A program made the translations under genes and the position numbers. 64,000 bases of DNA from Collinsella tanakaei (lineage in GTDB: Bacteria; Actinomycetota; Coriobacteriia; Coriobacteriales; Coriobacteriaceae). The notes under the pieces are model-generated. The model did no database searches, was not told the DNA's origin, and saw only the letters and a program-made list of their open reading frames with translations. Positions 8,259 through 58,261 of the stretch are shown one piece after another. Position 1 is the stretch's first letter, and each line of letters begins with the position of its first letter. The DNA is taken from assembly GCF_021531055.1 (NCBI RefSeq), contig NZ_JADYTL010000001.1, positions 124,001 through 188,000 on the forward strand. Reading direction: 5' to 3'.

Positions 8259-9373
8259 TGCGCATCACCTTCGCTTTCCGAAAGGCCTTCCTCGATCAGC
8301 GAGCGGAACTCCGCGAGCGGGATCCGCTCGATGGAACACGCTCCGATGCGATGCGGCAAGACGACGTCGATCTCGTCGCCGGCGCGCTTCTTGTCGTGCA
8401 GCGCGGCGGCGTAGAGCTCGTCGACGGGGAAGGTGTTCGATCCCTGCAGGCCGTGGGCGCGGCAGAGCGCCACGATGCGCTCCGGCACATCCGCGTCGCA
8501 GATACCGCGGTGTGCGGCGGCGCGGCAGATCGCTCCCATACCGAGGGCGACGCAGGTGCCGTGGCCGAGGCTGTACGCGGCGCACGATTCGATGGCATGA
8601 CCGATGCTGTGTCCGAAGTTGAGCAGCTTCCGGGTTCCGGTCTCGCGCTCGTCGGCAACCACGACGGCGCGTTTGATATCGATGTTCCGTGCGACGAGGT
8701 ACGCGACGCGCGGCAGGTCGCGCATGAGGAGCTCGAGGGTGAGCGGGGTGCGCTCGAGCTCGGCGAACAGGTCCGCATCGGCGATCGCGGCGTGCTTGAC
8801 GACCTCGCCGCACCCGTCGGCGAACTGCTCGGACGATAGGGTGGCCAAGCATCCCACGTCGGCGATCACGACGCTCGGTTGCCAGAAGGCGCCGGCGAGG
8901 TTCTTGCCCGCTGCAAGATCGATGGCGGTCTTTCCTCCCACGGAGGAGTCGACCATCGCCAGCAGGCTCGTGGGCATCTGGATGAACCGGCACCCGCGCA
9001 TATACGTAGCGGCGGCGAACCCCGCGACGTCCCCGACCACACCGCCGCCGAGTGCGACGACGATATCGCTGCGCGTCAGTTCATGTGCGGACATGAATTC
9101 GAGGATATCGATCAGCGTATCGGCGCGTTTACTCGCCTCGCCGGCTTCGAAGGTGTACTGCGATGCGGCATAGCCGGCGTCCTGCAGGCTCTTGAGCACC
9201 GGCTGCGCATAGAGCGGGCCGACATTCGAGTCGGTCACGACGACCGCCCGTGCACCGCCGCAGACCTCGCGGGCGATGGCGCCGGCCGCTTCCAACAGGA
9301 ACGTGCCGATATGGACCTGGTAGGGTCGACCGGTGTCGACGTCGAGCGTGTAGTAGATCTTGGACTCAGCCAT
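8252..9373 (-). CDS. aroB: 3-dehydroquinate synthase
   Basis: Second pathway step: cyclises DAHP to 3-dehydroquinate using NAD and a divalent metal. The ATG at 9373 (MAESKIYYT) gives 373 residues, the family norm; longer frames would run into tyrA. The NAD and metal-site blocks GGGVVGDVAGF and SVGGKTAID are visible, with the metal-ligand His in the NFGHSIGHAIE region. It starts 2 bp after the tyrA stop. The Shine-Dalgarno is weak (GAAGGA, spaced about 10 bp), suggesting dependence on coupling with tyrA. Confidence 0.94.
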   Translation of the reverse strand: MAESKIYYTLDVDTGRPYQVHIGTFLLEAAGAIAREVCGGARAVVVTDSNVGPLYAQPVLKSLQDAGYAASQYTFEAGEASKRADTLIDILEFMSAHELTRSDIVVALGGGVVGDVAGFAAATYMRGCRFIQMPTSLLAMVDSSVGGKTAIDLAAGKNLAGAFWQPSVVIADVGCLATLSSEQFADGCGEVVKHAAIADADLFAELERTPLTLELLMRDLPRVAYLVARNIDIKRAVVVADERETGTRKLLNFGHSIGHAIESCAAYSLGHGTCVALGMGAICRAAAHRGICDADVPERIVALCRAHGLQGSNTFPVDELYAAALHDKKRAGDEIDVVLPHRIGACSIERIPLAEFRSLIEEGLSESEGDAQC

Positions 9374-51436: not shown

Positions 51437-52804
51437 ATGACCGCCGTCTTCACATTCATCTCGTCGCTCTTTTGGGGCGTGCTCACGCTATCGGTGCTCG
51501 TGTTCATCCACGAGCTCGGCCATTTCCTTGCAGCGCGCGCATGCCATGTTCGCGTCACTGAGTTTTTCCTCGGCATGCCCTGCAGTAAGAATATCCATGT
51601 CGTCTCGAAGAGGACCGGCACCAAGATCGGCGTGACGCCGATTCTGCTCGGAGGGTATGCCGCGATCTGCGGTATGGAGGATTCCGAATCCGCCTATGCG
51701 CCCATGGTCCTATCCGCGATCCATCGGGCAGGCACGATTTCGTGTCAGCGATTGTCGACCGAGCTCGGTTTGGATATCGAGGTGGTCCAGGAGGCATGTG
51801 CCCAACTTGAGCAATGGGGTTCGATCGCCCCCGTCTACCTCGACGGCGACGGACCGCAAGGTCGCTATTATCCGAGCGCGTATGCGGCCATGCCTCGAGA
51901 TGCGCAAGGGTACACCATCTATGACGGTCGTGCGTTCGACGCTTCGCATGCGACACGGCAAGGTGAGCCTTGGGATCCGTCGATGGGGGAGCGAGCGTTC
52001 TACTGTGCCGAACGCTCGCATACCTATGCCGGCAAAGGGTTCCCCAAACGCGTCTTCATGCTCGTCGCCGGTGTTGTCATGAACCTGTTGCTCGGGTTCG
52101 CCTTGCTCGTGTTCGTCTACTCGGTCATCGGATTCGACGTCGCGATCGATTCGAACGTGATCGGTTCCGTCGAGGAATCTTCGCCTGCGTCGCAGGCCGG
52201 CCTTCGTGCAGGCGATGAAATCGTCTCCATCTCCGATATCGAGACGGATTCCTGGACCGACATCCTTGCTGCTATACAGGAGTTGTCCGAAACGTCGGAC
52301 GAACCCTCTTTCGCCATCACCTTCGAGCGCGACGGGGCTCTCGATACGGTGACCCTTTCGCCCGACGATGACGGCTTGGTCGGCATCGGCATCATGTACG
52401 AGCATCGTCGTCTCGGCGTCATCGATGCGATCCGCGTATCGGCGGACTACATCTACCAAACCGCTTCCGGCGTGATCCAGCTGCTCATCCCTTCGCAAAC
52501 CATGGAAGTGCTCGATAACTCGACCTCGATCGTCGGCATTTCGGTGATCTCCGCGCAGGCGGCGGCAAGCGGACCTGTGGTCTACCTGACGTTTGCGTCG
52601 CTCATCTCCCTTTCGCTCGGCCTCATGAACCTCCTTCCCATTCCGCCGCTCGACGGTGGCAAACTGCTCTTCGAGGTTTTTCAGCTGATCGTCAGGCGAC
52701 CGGTGCCCGCCAAGATAAAGAACGCGGTCTCGTATATCGGCATCGCACTGTTTTTGATGCTGTTCGTCTATATGTTCCAACAGGATATCGCGCGCTTGAT
52801 CTGA
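51437..52804 (+). CDS. rseP: RseP-type site-2 protease with an inserted winged-helix-like segment
   Basis: Intramembrane zinc metalloprotease. Active-site HELGH is at residues 25-29 in the first helix, GGYAAICG at 72-79 marks the re-entrant loop, and the second motif region reads NLLPIPPLDGGKLLFE near the C-terminus. A PDZ domain spans about 232-320. At 455 residues it is longer than usual because ~120 residues (about 83-200) are inserted between the GGY loop and VAGVVMN. Of these, 88-146 look like a winged helix-turn-helix. The start is the ATG at 51437, with no strong ribosome site. It lies between dxr and ispG, the usual place. Confidence 0.9.
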   Translation: MTAVFTFISSLFWGVLTLSVLVFIHELGHFLAARACHVRVTEFFLGMPCSKNIHVVSKRTGTKIGVTPILLGGYAAICGMEDSESAYAPMVLSAIHRAGTISCQRLSTELGLDIEVVQEACAQLEQWGSIAPVYLDGDGPQGRYYPSAYAAMPRDAQGYTIYDGRAFDASHATRQGEPWDPSMGERAFYCAERSHTYAGKGFPKRVFMLVAGVVMNLLLGFALLVFVYSVIGFDVAIDSNVIGSVEESSPASQAGLRAGDEIVSISDIETDSWTDILAAIQELSETSDEPSFAITFERDGALDTVTLSPDDDGLVGIGIMYEHRRLGVIDAIRVSADYIYQTASGVIQLLIPSQTMEVLDNSTSIVGISVISAQAAASGPVVYLTFASLISLSLGLMNLLPIPPLDGGKLLFEVFQLIVRRPVPAKIKNAVSYIGIALFLMLFVYMFQQDIARLI

Positions 52805-52856
52805 TGGTCCTCTTGCGATATCCCGCACGTATCATGCCCGTCAAGGAGGTTTTCCG

Positions 52857-53921
52857 ATGGAGCAGGTAGCACCCCGTACGTTGACGCGCAAGGTTCACGT
52901 CGGTGACGTGGCCATCGGTGGCGATGCGCCAGTGGTCGTCCAGTCCATGACCTGCACGCCGACATCGGATACCAAGGCTACGCTCGCCCAGGTTCGCGCT
53001 CTTGCCGATGCCGGATGCGATATCGTCCGCGTCACCCTGCCCGATAAGAATGCCATCGACAGCTTCGCGCGCATTTGCGCCTTGAGTCCCGTGCCGATCG
53101 TCGCCGACATCCATTTCGATTATCGACTCGCCATCGCTGCCGTTCGCGCCGGTGCTGCCAAGCTCCGCATCAATCCCGGTAACATCGGCTCGTGGGAACG
53201 CGTGGATGCCGTCATCGATGCGGCGGGGGAGCGTGGCGCCGCCATCCGCATCGGCGTCAACGCCGGTTCGCTCGAGCAGGATATCGCCGAGCGCGATGAT
53301 CTGACGCTGCCTCAAAAGCTTGTCGCGTCGTCGTTGCGCTTCGTCGATCATTTCGAGCAGCGGGGCTTTCGCGACATCGTGCTTTCCGCGAAAGCCCACA
53401 GCGTTCCCACGACGATCGACACCTATCGTGCGCTCTCGCGTGAACTTCCCGACATTCCGCTGCATCTCGGTGTGACCGAGGCGGGTACCGTGCGCCAGGG
53501 GACGATCAAAAGCTCTGTCGGACTGGGCGTTCTGCTCGCCGAGGGAATCGGTAACACCTTGCGCGTCTCGTTGACGGCCGACCCCGTCGAGGAGCCTCCG
53601 GTTGCATGGGGCATCCTCGAGTGTCTCGGTATCCGTCGACGCGGACCCGAGCTCGTGTCGTGTCCGACGTGCGGGCGAACCCAGGTGAACCTGATCCCGA
53701 TCGCGCAGGAGGTGGAGCGCCGCCTTCAAAACGTCACCAAGCCGATCTCGGTCGCCGTGATGGGATGCGTGGTCAACGGGCCCGGTGAGGCCTCGGATGC
53801 GGATGTGTGCGTCGCATGCGGACGCGGTTCGGCGCTGCTGTTCCGCCATGGTGAGGTGATCAGGAAGATCGACGAGGACCATATCGTCGATGAGCTCATG
53901 CGTGAGATCGAATCGCTCTGA
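52857..53921 (+). CDS. ispG: 4-hydroxy-3-methylbut-2-en-1-yl diphosphate synthase
   Basis: 4Fe-4S enzyme of the MEP pathway producing HMBPP. The 354 residues start at an ATG 5 bp after AAGGAGGTTT-type sequence. VHVGDVAIGGDAPVVVQSMT, DIHFDYRLA, RINPGNIG are conserved. The cluster ligands lie in SCPTCGRTQVNL (two Cys) and GCVVNGPGEA (third Cys). The 52-bp gap after rseP makes co-transcription likely. Confidence 0.96.
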   Translation: MEQVAPRTLTRKVHVGDVAIGGDAPVVVQSMTCTPTSDTKATLAQVRALADAGCDIVRVTLPDKNAIDSFARICALSPVPIVADIHFDYRLAIAAVRAGAAKLRINPGNIGSWERVDAVIDAAGERGAAIRIGVNAGSLEQDIAERDDLTLPQKLVASSLRFVDHFEQRGFRDIVLSAKAHSVPTTIDTYRALSRELPDIPLHLGVTEAGTVRQGTIKSSVGLGVLLAEGIGNTLRVSLTADPVEEPPVAWGILECLGIRRRGPELVSCPTCGRTQVNLIPIAQEVERRLQNVTKPISVAVMGCVVNGPGEASDADVCVACGRGSALLFRHGEVIRKIDEDHIVDELMREIESL

Positions 53922-53989
53922 GCAAGCCCGGTGCTTACGCATACCTTGCGATATCGCCTGTTCGCACGGCCCCCATCGGGGTCCTGCGC

Positions 53990-53995
53990 TAGAAT
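53990..53995 (+). promoter_or_regulatory. Candidate -10 box of proS
   Basis: TAGAAT preceded by GCGC, 41 bp before the proS TTG, in the 114-bp gap after ispG. No clear -35. A GC-rich self-complementary stretch (GGCCCC-ATC-GGGGTCC) lies just upstream. Confidence 0.4.
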
Positions 53996-54035
53996 GCTGA
54001 CCGTACGGCTTATTACGTTCTGAGGAGAAACCACC

Positions 54036-55760
54036 TTGGCGACCACCAAACGTGTTATGAAGATGTCGAACCTCTACGCTCCCACCTTGAAGGAGGATCC
54101 CGCCGAGGCCGAGCTCGCGAGCCATCGTCTGCTGCTTCGAGCCGGTATGATCCGCAAGGTCGCGGCCGGTCTTTACAGCTACCTGCCGCTGGCGTGGCGT
54201 TCGATCAGAAAGATCGAGGCGATCTGCCGCGACGAGATGGACGCGATCGGTGCGCAGGAGATGATGGCGCCGATCCTGACTCCCGCAGAGCTGTGGGAGG
54301 AGTCCGGACGTATCGGTGCATACGGCCCCGAGCTCATGCGACTCGAGGACCGTCATGACCGCACCTTCTGCCTCGGGCCCACGCACGAGGAGACGTTCAC
54401 CGATCTTGTCCGCAACGAGCTTCGCAGCTACAAGCAACTTCCGTTGACGCTCTACCATATCCAGGATAAGTTCCGCGATGAGCTTCGTCCCCGATTCGGC
54501 CTCATGCGCAGCCGCGAATTCATCATGAAGGATGCCTACTCCTTCTCCGCGACCCAGGAGTCGCTGCAGGAGGTCTATGAGGACATGAAGGGCGCCTATG
54601 CGCGCTATTGCGAGCGCTGCGGCCTCAAGGCGCTTCCCGTCGCCGCGGATTCCGGCGAGATCGGCGGAGATTCCTCGATCGAGTACATGGCGCTTGCCGA
54701 GGCCGGCGAGGCGTCGCTCGTCTGGTGCGATTGCGGGTTCGCCGCCGACGATGAGGCTGCATCCACGACGGTGGTCGTCAGCGAGGGTCCGGGCGACGGC
54801 ACGCTCGAGAAGGTCCATACCCCCGGTTTGGGCACGATCGAGGCGGTTGCCGCGTTCTTCGGATTCCCCGAGAACGGCACCCGCAAGTCCCTTGCGCTTA
54901 TCGATGGCGACGGCGAGCCCGTCGTCGCCATCGTTCCGGGCGACCATGAGCTCAACGATATCAAGACGTCCAAGCTCTTCGGCGACTATCATCTCATGAG
55001 CGATGAGGAGCTCGAGCAGTTTGGCCTGCATAAGGGCTTTATCGGGCCCGTCGGTCTGCCCGCGGGGATCCGCTTGGTATGCGACGAGTCGCTGAAGTCC
55101 AGCACACGCTGGGCGTGCGGCGCCAACGAGGTCGACTACCACTACACCGGCGCCTGCCCCGATCGCGACTTCGCGGTCGATATGTGGGCCGATCTTGTGA
55201 CGGTCAAGCCGGGTGACCCCTGCCCTCATTGCGGCAAGATCCTCCACGGCGGTCGCGGCATCGAGTGCGGTCAGGTTTTCCAGATCGGCACCGAGAAATA
55301 CGCTGCCAAGATGGGTGCGACGTTCGCCGATGAGAACGGTCGCGAGCAGCCGTTCTATATGGGCTGCTACGGCATCGGCATCTCCCGTACCCTCGCGGCG
55401 ATCGTGGAACAGCATCATGACGACGGCGGCATCGTGTGGCCCGTCTCGGTCGCACCCTACGAGGTCTCCGTCATCGCGCTCGACAAGAAGGGAGAGGCCT
55501 TCGACGCTGCTGCGGACCTTGCCGACCAACTGGCAGCCGCCGGTATCGACGTCGTGTTCGATGATCGCAAGGAGCGTCCGGGCGTGAAGTTCGCCGACAA
55601 CGATCTCATGGGCTTCCCGTATCAGCTCATCGTCGGCAAGCGAGGCCTGCAAAACGGTACGGTCGAACTCAAGGTCCGTGCCGACGGCACACGCGAGGAC
55701 CTCGTACTCGACGGAGCTGTCGCGGAGCTCGTCGCCCGCGTCGAGCGCGAACGTCGCTGA
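54036..55760 (+). CDS. proS: Prolyl-tRNA synthetase (bacterial type)
   Basis: Charges tRNA-Pro. The TTG at 54036 follows TGAGGAG by 8 bp; 574 residues match the bacterial-type length. Class II motif 1 region AGLYSYLPL, motif 2 with RDELRPRFGLMRSREFIMKDAYSF, and motif 3 GCYGIGISRTLAA are present. An INS editing domain sits at roughly 230-390 with the conserved lysine in TRKSLALID, so Ala-tRNA-Pro editing in cis is expected. The C-terminal anticodon domain carries VVFDDRKERPGVKF. Confidence 0.95.
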   Translation: MATTKRVMKMSNLYAPTLKEDPAEAELASHRLLLRAGMIRKVAAGLYSYLPLAWRSIRKIEAICRDEMDAIGAQEMMAPILTPAELWEESGRIGAYGPELMRLEDRHDRTFCLGPTHEETFTDLVRNELRSYKQLPLTLYHIQDKFRDELRPRFGLMRSREFIMKDAYSFSATQESLQEVYEDMKGAYARYCERCGLKALPVAADSGEIGGDSSIEYMALAEAGEASLVWCDCGFAADDEAASTTVVVSEGPGDGTLEKVHTPGLGTIEAVAAFFGFPENGTRKSLALIDGDGEPVVAIVPGDHELNDIKTSKLFGDYHLMSDEELEQFGLHKGFIGPVGLPAGIRLVCDESLKSSTRWACGANEVDYHYTGACPDRDFAVDMWADLVTVKPGDPCPHCGKILHGGRGIECGQVFQIGTEKYAAKMGATFADENGREQPFYMGCYGIGISRTLAAIVEQHHDDGGIVWPVSVAPYEVSVIALDKKGEAFDAAADLADQLAAAGIDVVFDDRKERPGVKFADNDLMGFPYQLIVGKRGLQNGTVELKVRADGTREDLVLDGAVAELVARVERERR

Positions 55761-56851: not shown

Positions 56852-57934
56852 TTAGAGCGCAGCGATCACGGCATCGGTGAACTCATCCGTACCGGCCGCA
56901 CCTTCGGTAGAGCCCGTCAGTGCGCGCTTGACGTCGGCGGTGACGTGCGTGCCGGCATCCAAGGCCGTGCGAATAGCGCGGCGGATCGTATCGGCAGCGG
57001 CATCTTCACCGAGATGATCGAGCAGCATGCACGCGGACAGGATCTCCGCGGTCGGGTTCGCGATGTTCTGACCGGCGATGTCGGGCGCCGAACCGTGCGT
57101 CGCCTCGAAGATGGCGCAGTTTTCCCCGATGTTCCCGCCGGGAGCCATGCCGAGGCCGCCCACGAGTCCCGCGGAAAGGTCGCTCACGATGTCGCCGTAG
57201 AGATTGGGGAGTACAAGCACGTCGAAATCCTCGGGATGCATGACGAGTCCCATGCATGCGGCGTCGACGATCTTATCGTCGAACTCGATATCGGGATAGC
57301 GCTTCGCGACGAAGCGTGCGACATCGAGATAGAGACCGTCGGTCGCCTTCATGATGTTCGCCTTATGGACGGCGGTGACTTTCGAACGGTTGTGACGACG
57401 CGCGTATTCGAACGCGTAGGTAAGGATACGCTCCGATCCCCATACGGAAATGGGCTTGATTGAAATCGCGGCATCCTCGCGAATCACGGCACCGGTTTGC
57501 TCGCGAACCAGGCAGCGCAGTTCCGAGGCGCCCGGATCGGTTGCCGGAAACTCGATGCCGGCATACAGGTCCTCGGTATTCTCGCGGATGATGACGAGGT
57601 CCACATCTTGATATCGCGAGCCGTCGCCCGGCATGGAAAGGCAGGGGCGGACGCAGGAGTAGAGGTCGAAGGTACGACGCAGTTCGACGTTCACGCTGCG
57701 GAAGCCGGTGCCCACCGGCGTCGTGATCGGGCCCTTGATGGCGACGCCGACGCTGCGGATCGCATCGATGACGTGGGCGGGGAGGGGGGTGCCGTATTGG
57801 TCGATCACGCCTGCGCCTGCCTCGAATTCATGCCATGTGATATCGACACCGGCCGCCTGAACGACGCGCTGCATCGCGCGCGTGATCTCGGGGCCGATCC
57901 CGTCTCCGGGAATAAGCACTACATCGTGGGTCAT
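56852..57934 (-). CDS. icd: Isocitrate dehydrogenase, NAD-type
   Basis: Beta-decarboxylating dehydrogenase of 360 residues, TCA-cycle step to 2-oxoglutarate. The isocitrate-binding signature SVN (S80, N82) with R86, R87 and R96 separates it from isopropylmalate dehydrogenase. The coenzyme region reads HGSAPDIAGQN: Asp-Ile where NADP enzymes have Lys-Tyr, so NAD is predicted. IRENTEDLYAG, AVHKANIMKATDG (catalytic Lys) and MHPEDFDVLVLPNLYGDIVSD are intact. AAGGCGG precedes the ATG. No terminator is seen before tRNA-Ala copy 1. It is the only gene between two tRNA-Ala repeats. Confidence 0.9.
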   Translation of the reverse strand: MTHDVVLIPGDGIGPEITRAMQRVVQAAGVDITWHEFEAGAGVIDQYGTPLPAHVIDAIRSVGVAIKGPITTPVGTGFRSVNVELRRTFDLYSCVRPCLSMPGDGSRYQDVDLVIIRENTEDLYAGIEFPATDPGASELRCLVREQTGAVIREDAAISIKPISVWGSERILTYAFEYARRHNRSKVTAVHKANIMKATDGLYLDVARFVAKRYPDIEFDDKIVDAACMGLVMHPEDFDVLVLPNLYGDIVSDLSAGLVGGLGMAPGGNIGENCAIFEATHGSAPDIAGQNIANPTAEILSACMLLDHLGEDAAADTIRRAIRTALDAGTHVTADVKRALTGSTEGAAGTDEFTDAVIAAL

Positions 57935-58015: not shown

Positions 58016-58074
58016 ACTGCAAGAAACACACCATTAAAATCGTGTCTCTCCGCTATCTTGGATTGCGACTCCCA

Positions 58075-58133
58075 CCCGGTGATCGCCCATGTAAAATAAC
58101 CCCAGGGGTTATTTTACATGGGCGATCACCGGG
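58075..58133. repeat. Perfect 59-nt palindrome (29-bp arms)
   Basis: Left arm 58075-58103 and right arm 58105-58133 are exact reverse complements around a single central A. The arms start CCCGGTGATCGCCC and have an AT-rich middle (ATGTAAAATAA) and CCCC at the centre. No T-run follows on either strand, so it is not a normal terminator. It lies between the icd promoter and the terminator of tRNA-Ala copy 2, with no open reading frame of note. Confidence 0.95.
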
Positions 58134-58143
58134 CTATGGTTAC

Positions 58144-58175
58144 AAAAAAGAGGCTCCTGCATTGCAGAAGCCTCT
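58144..58175 (-). terminator. Rho-independent terminator of tRNA-Ala copy 2
   Basis: Minus strand: 12-bp stem AGAGGCTTCTGC / GCAGGAGCCTCT with one G-T pair, 3-nt loop, followed by a run of T (plus-strand A-run 58144-58149). Confidence 0.88.
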
Positions 58176-58185
58176 GTATTGCCTA

Positions 58186-58261
58186 TGGTGGAGACGAGGG
58201 GGATCGAACCCCTGACCTCTTGACTGCCAGTCAAGCGCTCTCCCAGCTGAGCTACGCCCCC
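58186..58261 (-). tRNA. tRNA-Ala (anticodon GGC), copy 2, CCA encoded
   Basis: Same mature sequence as copy 1, including the G3-U70 pair and anticodon GGC, but with CCA encoded at 58188-58186. It has its own promoter and terminator, so it is a complete single-gene unit. Confidence 0.96.

Follow-up and report, generated by a model that had tools for sequence, protein, structure and literature searches.

A perfect 59-nt palindrome ahead of icd in Collinsella tanakaei: a REP-like copy within a RAYT/TIRYT system, most likely left by collapse of a doublet

Described palindromic repeats and their transposases

The systems closest to the element considered here are REP sequences and their inverted doublets (REPINs), together with the RAYT and TIRYT transposases whose genes such repeats flank. 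Bertels and Rainey (2011; PMC3116915) describe, in the excerpted text, deletion between both REPs of one REPIN, the product being a long palindrome that contains just one REP, and Quentin et al. (2018; PMC6006769) consider that a double-foot REP could arise by central deletion of an inverted dimer. The excerpted text of the latter survey gives for TnpA-Y1 subclass 2.1 a median length of 238 aa, NHVH and Y--NP motifs and a C-terminal HTH, of the Bac_DnaA_C, HTH_23 or HTH_28 type, and reports no REP-like sequences near subclass 2.1 genes. In the TIRYT/TIRtron systems of De Nocera et al. (2013; PMC3733652), tyrosine transposase genes lie between inverted repeats, in some cases self-complementary, which make up repeat families of moderate size that include dimers; the excerpts from that paper make no mention of Collinsella, Coriobacteria or Actinobacteria. 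On evolution, rayt genes are reported to evolve faster than their neighbours (PMC2817692), and Nunvar et al. (2013; PMC3686654), in the part of the text on the "orthoswitch", describe orthologous RAYTs flanked by different REP classes, with a model in which new REPs spread and old copies decay, the authors being able only to speculate on switching. A search of the open-licence literature (subscription papers being outside its scope) gave nothing joining Collinsella, REP and RAYT, or RAYT, REPIN and Actinobacteria, and nothing joining repetitive extragenic palindromic, concerted evolution and transposase.

The window, i.e. the whole 64,000-nucleotide stretch of C. tanakaei DNA that was analysed, contains a perfect palindrome. 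Judged from its sequence and its relatives, the palindrome is a REP-like member of a Coriobacteriaceae RAYT/TIRYT system and in all likelihood a doublet that has collapsed; nothing points to a role dedicated to icd. Taken as a whole, the reading as a RAYT-linked REP-like copy that has collapsed from a doublet and sits near icd as a passenger is the best explanation that we can offer, and we consider it probable. The palindrome thus becomes readable as the product of a known kind of element, which argues against a special icd operator. The family also ties palindromic repeat doublets, in Coriobacteriaceae, to a RAYT group for which the excerpted survey reports no REPs (PMC6006769).

The palindrome and its dispersed core family

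An inverted-repeat search finds exact arms at 58075-58103 and 58105-58133, each of 29 nt, 100% complementary and separated by a 1-nt spacer, and a script check agrees; the perfect palindrome with 29-bp arms around one central base in the preliminary description is thus reproduced. By script, the 59 nt resolve into a 31-bp core (58089-58119) with an outer arm of 14 bp on each side, the two arms pairing exactly. Among perfect inverted repeats of the window with arms up to 80 bp apart none is longer, the runner-up having arms of 16 nt, and by arithmetic about 64000 x 4^-29 such palindromes, i.e. nil, are expected by chance in 64 kb. As single-stranded DNA, the minus strand of 58060-58150 folds at -36.8 kcal/mol, compared with a shuffle mean of -10.5 (z = -11.3); none of 200 shuffles folds as well. 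The features of the locus are as follows.

58075-58133, unstranded: the whole 59-nt perfect palindrome, a single-core REP-like element, probably a collapsed REPIN (repeat search, folding, core survey)
58089-58119, unstranded: 31-bp core ATGTAAAATAACCCC-A-GGGGTTATTTTACAT, the family repeat or REP-like unit (49 genome sites, control 0)
58075-58088, unstranded: left outer arm, specific to this locus and exactly complementary to the right arm (14 bp, compared with 0-2 bp in 28 other solo-called cores)
58120-58133, unstranded: right outer arm, locus-specific (same core survey)
58149-58175, minus strand: tRNA-Ala intrinsic terminator stem-loop, with the T-run just below 58149, outside the repeat (12-pair stem and T tail)
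58186-58261, minus strand: tRNA-Ala(ggc) (context)
56852-57934, minus strand: icd-like gene, isocitrate/isopropylmalate dehydrogenase family (context)

The palindrome is located between the tail of the tRNA-Ala terminator and the start of the icd-like gene, both of which are on the minus strand, and begins 141 bp ahead of the icd-like start codon, in keeping with the earlier placement upstream of icd. The tRNA-Ala carries its own promoter-like site. In NCBIfam the icd-like protein fits an isocitrate dehydrogenase model best, scoring 405 bits where the cut-off of the model is 510; among named genomes, its nearest relatives come from an uncultured Coriobacteriaceae bacterium (79%) and from species of Collinsella (about 70-74%). 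Rfam at gathering thresholds, applied to the window and 36 loci, returns tRNAs and one TPP riboswitch, and nothing else. Gene calls were made with a crude in-house finder which, for example, favours an antisense frame over proS: a 986-codon open frame at 52692-55652 (minus strand) runs antisense to an apparent proS (54036-55760, plus strand) and is probably a composition effect.

The search of the genome and relatives that had been proposed shows that the central 31 bp recur. In the source genome (G000; 2.23 Mb in 16 contigs) the core has 49 sites with at most three mismatches to its 25-bp inner part, the backwards control giving none; at the same threshold the family is present in three of 39 genomes, namely G000 and two relatives, G021 and G022, which hold few, mostly variant copies. 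A core survey of 36 loci and the window, in which a core was defined by script as a CCCCNGGGG centre with A+T-rich sides, yielded 81 cores, with centres CCCCAGGGG (39), CCCCTGGGG (38) or a G or C in the middle (4). Close pairs, of which there are 26, account for 52 of the 81; in 18 of these pairs one core matches the reverse complement of the other at 27/31 positions or more, and in 13 of the 26 the cores lie 52-55 bp apart with an inner arm of 9-11 bp. Because the cores are paired in inverted orientation, many copies are long hairpins that run from outer arm through core and inner arm to a small loop and back, the inverted doublets forming near-perfect hairpins of about 70-115 bp. Inner arms recur in a few copies, as in two that are separated by 3 kb on contig C11, and as with GGAGCCATG on C10 and C11; outer arms vary between sites. 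Pairs are frequently found just past gene ends or between convergent genes, overall placement being mixed, and by the crude gene finder only 5 of 56 core groups fall within predicted genes.

The family therefore has two properties of REPs, being a short palindrome in many dispersed copies and being mostly extragenic. The GT[AG]G 5' foot of REPs is missing from the window copy, which has GTAA on both sides; without a GTAG or GTGG foot, it is not a canonical REP. The feet of other cores are GTAA, GTAG, GTCA, GTCG or GCAA. Compared with REPINs as described in the excerpts of PMC3116915, the family is alike in having inverted doublets of a short palindromic repeat, a pairing spacer that varies between loci, and singlets. 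It differs in that the core is itself a 31-bp palindrome, exact almost throughout, which is centred on CCCCWGGGG and lacks a GTAG foot, that the outer arms are locus-specific and self-complementary, and that copies number tens, not hundreds. Doublets of two inverted REPs with a pairing spacer, as in a REPIN, occur in the family; the window element itself has one core.

Some copies, at L031 2706-2737, L034 2631-2660, and L204 and L214 1511-1536, are not inverted pairs; they are direct repeats in tandem that have an edge in common and are spaced by 24-31 bp. A core pair with the same letters, the same 66-bp spacing and unswitched centres is present both at G022:C18:17476/17542 and at G000:C2:30440/30506, one core of the latter pair lying within a predicted gene.

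The flanked transposase and changed centres in relatives

A profile search of the source genome finds four Y1_Tnp genes above the Pfam cut-off. The Y1/HUH gene at G000:C13:15110-15862 (L129) has the window-type core on both flanks, one core overlapping its stop codon and two more lying 10 and 83 bp ahead of its start; flanking of a cognate RAYT gene, characteristic of REPs, is thus seen at L129/L130. Since the core is spread genome-wide and flanks a RAYT-type Y1/HUH transposase gene, the window element can be regarded as REP-like, and its family probably belongs to the transposase at L129. The other three Y1 genes (L126, L127 and L128) have repeats unlike the core, each gene with its own in both flanks (GGGAAAATAGGGACTGTCCC.., ATGTCCCAAAAGGGGCCAGG.. 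and GGTTGGTTGGGGACGTGTTCC.., respectively).

The arrangement is common in the genus. The 5' and 3' flanks have a repeat in common at 23 of 33 RAYT loci (E <= 1e-4), or 26 of 33 (E <= 0.01), compared with 0 of 33 mismatched flank pairs and 3 of 34 control loci, which represent two genes only (icd and ABC-F), all three matches there being duplicated tRNA genes. At seven of the 33 RAYT loci a common flank repeat is missing even at E <= 0.01, including the G021 and G022 orthologues: the former has the repeat on its 5' side only, and the comparison for the latter covered 38 nt of the 5' flank.

With respect to type, all four proteins (246-251 aa) have the NHVH and Y--NP motifs and exceed the Y1_Tnp cut-off, as RAYTs do. 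Against the NCBIfam model REP_Tyr_transpos (NF047646) all four score 60-68 bits, below its equivalog cut-off of 80, and the match to E. coli TnpA-REP 4er8 is weak (E = 0.05). A search for C-terminal HTH domains (E <= 5) gave weak matches in two of the four, HTH_23 (0.076) and HTH_28 (0.094) in one and other HTH families in the second; at that threshold the transposase of the window family has no clear C-terminal HTH. The proteins resemble subclass 2.1/TIRYT, an assignment made by motifs and length, not by the profiles of PMC6006769, although in contrast with subclass 2.1 as excerpted from that survey, the genes here are flanked by palindromic repeat families. Besides flanking inverted repeats that are sometimes self-complementary, and moderate families with dimers, a repeat overlapping the 3' end of the gene is a further likeness to TIRYTs; the common GGGGWSAS motif given in the excerpts of PMC3733652 is, however, missing from the core.

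The orthologous transposases of G021 and G022 are 74-76% identical to that of G000, the next best in the genus being at 55%, and neighbouring genes are at 91-99% amino-acid identity; the transposase thus evolves faster than its neighbours, as is reported for other RAYTs (PMC2817692). The two relatives have a repeat of their own with the centre CCCTAGGG, as opposed to CCCCWGGGG in G000, with 20 and 10 matches, respectively (at most three mismatches; control 0). Run on G000, the relatives' pattern gives 17 matches, none with CCCTAGGG. At 8 of 12 G000 elements for which both flanks were found in the sequence covered for the relatives, a relative core lies at the same point, with CCCTAGGG in all 8, a count that is biased upward because the G000 loci were chosen for carrying cores. 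In a blind 400 kb of G021, a relative core was found at 2 of 5 G000 elements with both flanks located, and L017/L246 is one further common point. Unswitched copies occur too: in G021 the centre at L014_6464 is still CCCCAGGGG, and in G022 that of one core at L016 is still CCCCTGGGG. An intermediate form, CCCCTAGGG, is found in two cores of G021.

One doublet can be followed closely. That at L124:2535-2634 in G000 is the same element, with the same inner arm, as that at L226 near 8403-8642 in G021; 14 of 100 positions differ, 12 of these being six mirrored pairs that include the change of centre, and the other two a TT/AA difference in the loop. The pattern looks as if one arm had been templated by the other, or the element inverted. 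In the excerpted orthoswitch model (PMC3686654) new REPs spread as old copies decay, whereas here the switched motif is found at old, orthologous positions. It is tempting, though we hold it somewhat short of an even chance, to suppose that in this lineage the recognition motif of a whole hairpin population was altered at its old positions, with mirrored changes on the two arms and in step with a fast-evolving RAYT, either by RAYT- or hairpin-templated rewriting or because the hairpins are working sites of a co-evolving binder or cutter and not inert relics; the 59-nt palindrome would then be a collapsed, still recognisable member. The change may have come about by gene conversion, by rewriting under RAYT guidance, by correction templated on the hairpin or through selection exerted by a co-evolving binder; for all copies but L124, renewed insertion at favoured points is a further possibility. 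Orthologous repeat positions whose motif has changed alongside the transposase make REP class switching testable by comparative genomics. As a separate observation, the repeat flanks at L217 in G021 map to two G000 repeat sites (L011 and L020) about 13 kb apart, which suggests a rearrangement with breakpoints at repeats.

Origin of the single core and its position ahead of icd

What sets the window copy apart is a single core with long arms. Among 29 solo-called cores, i.e. those unpaired within 70 bp (some of which have a partner 73-85 bp off or a degenerate one, e.g. C13:17935 and C10:82537/82622), 28 have 0-2 bp of extra self-complementarity and the window copy has 14 bp. An outer arm of at least 4 bp (range 4-15 bp) is seen in 9 of 18 inverted pairs and in one of the 29 solo-called cores, that of the window. 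Since it is the only solo-called core with long outer arms and doublets often have them, the window palindrome is probably a doublet (REPIN) minus its middle. Other symmetric solo cores have no outer arms, and no doublet with the exact outer arms of the window copy was found. Core-to-core distances of 52-55, 37-38 and 29 bp occur, the 29-bp case (C14:15046) being without an inner arm, and these spacings plausibly form a shortening series with the single core as its end point. At one syntenic point there is a doublet in G021 (L213) and a single symmetric core in G000 (L012).

We infer that such a collapse took place at the site of the palindrome. The starting state would have been a doublet of the form outer arm-core-inner arm-loop-inner arm-core-outer arm. 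Since a core is close to a palindrome, two inverted cores amount to rough direct repeats as well, and deletion between the two CCCCWGGGG centres, by slippage, hairpin cleavage or RAYT action, would leave outer arm-core-outer arm, 59 nt in all. By analogy with E. coli TnpA-REP, the RAYT may cut and rejoin such hairpins in single-stranded DNA, providing for both spread and upkeep. There the element would sit as a passenger, with the tRNA-Ala terminator on one side and the icd promoter region on the other, and whatever it may do to icd, be it as a 5'-UTR hairpin, by insulation or as a roadblock, would be secondary. Insertion into a pre-existing GC-rich terminator was considered as a source of outer arms; no T-runs were seen beside the outer arms inspected.

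The long arms could also have been made without a REPIN stage, if a flank of a solo core was copied across by fold-back (hairpin-primed) synthesis or template switching. The outer arms are indeed locus-specific yet exactly self-complementary, and the orthologous L124/L226 hairpin, with 12 of its 14 differences mirrored, is as expected if one arm templates the other; however, selection for pairing could also give mirrored changes, and outer arms of at most 2 bp in all 28 other solo-called cores, with often longer ones in doublets, make this route unlikely. A different kind of proposal is that the sequence is a selected binding site or RNA element, which either serves icd as operator, roadblock, insulator or 5'-UTR hairpin or is a genome-wide site of a RAYT-derived DNA-binding protein. 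The strong hairpin 141 bp ahead of icd fits this, as does retention of the motif at many places and its change in relatives in step with the RAYT at the same places, which is what a co-evolving binder would produce. Against it, the flanks of the 56 core groups are convergent, codirectional or divergent, with five intragenic, and show no coherent upstream placement (by the crude finder). Moreover G021 and G022, the two relatives with the orthologous transposase, retain the order tRNA-Val, tRNA-Ala, icd and a T-tailed hairpin behind tRNA-Ala, and have neither core nor palindrome at the icd site. There the icd and tRNA-Ala flanks align, the interval being too diverged for a clean junction or target duplication; the block best matched in the relatives (TTTTA..GGTGTGTTTC.TGCAG) is found nearer to icd, between that gene and the position of the palindrome. 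The palindrome at icd is lineage-specific, as far as these alignments indicate, and at the named Collinsella icd loci inspected a different gene lies directly ahead of icd; in the other icd loci that were looked at in detail, tRNA-Ala is not adjacent to icd. A selected site is accordingly given a low probability, and an icd-specific operator, for which conservation ahead of icd in close relatives would be expected, is disfavoured by both the dispersal of the core and its absence in G021 and G022; most likely there is no dedicated icd switch.

With respect to the four origins listed in the preliminary description, the mobile-element relic gains support from a core that is dispersed and flanks a Y1/HUH transposase gene, whereas the regulator site for icd is left unsupported by the finding of the core at dozens of unrelated places and the retention of tRNA-Ala, terminator and icd without it in the two closest relatives. 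A lack of any inverted structure here in relatives, which that description took as a refutation, is found in G021 and G022, where it tells against a function for icd and leaves the repeat itself standing. A processed RNA hairpin or a cruciform is possible. Intrinsic termination, suggested by the position of a hairpin downstream of tRNA-Ala, is extremely improbable and was rejected: as was stated from the outset, no T-run follows the palindrome on either strand, and the nearby T-run belongs to the separate, T-tailed terminator between palindrome and tRNA-Ala, with T-tailed hairpins at the equivalent place in G021 and G022. Long perfect palindromes are a known type of assembly artefact, and inverted duplication during assembly or library preparation could in principle have produced the outer arms; we consider this very unlikely. 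The core certainly represents a genuine family, and doublets in this assembly often have outer arms, so that with 4-15 bp of extra arm in half of the inverted pairs no artefact is needed to account for those of the palindrome.
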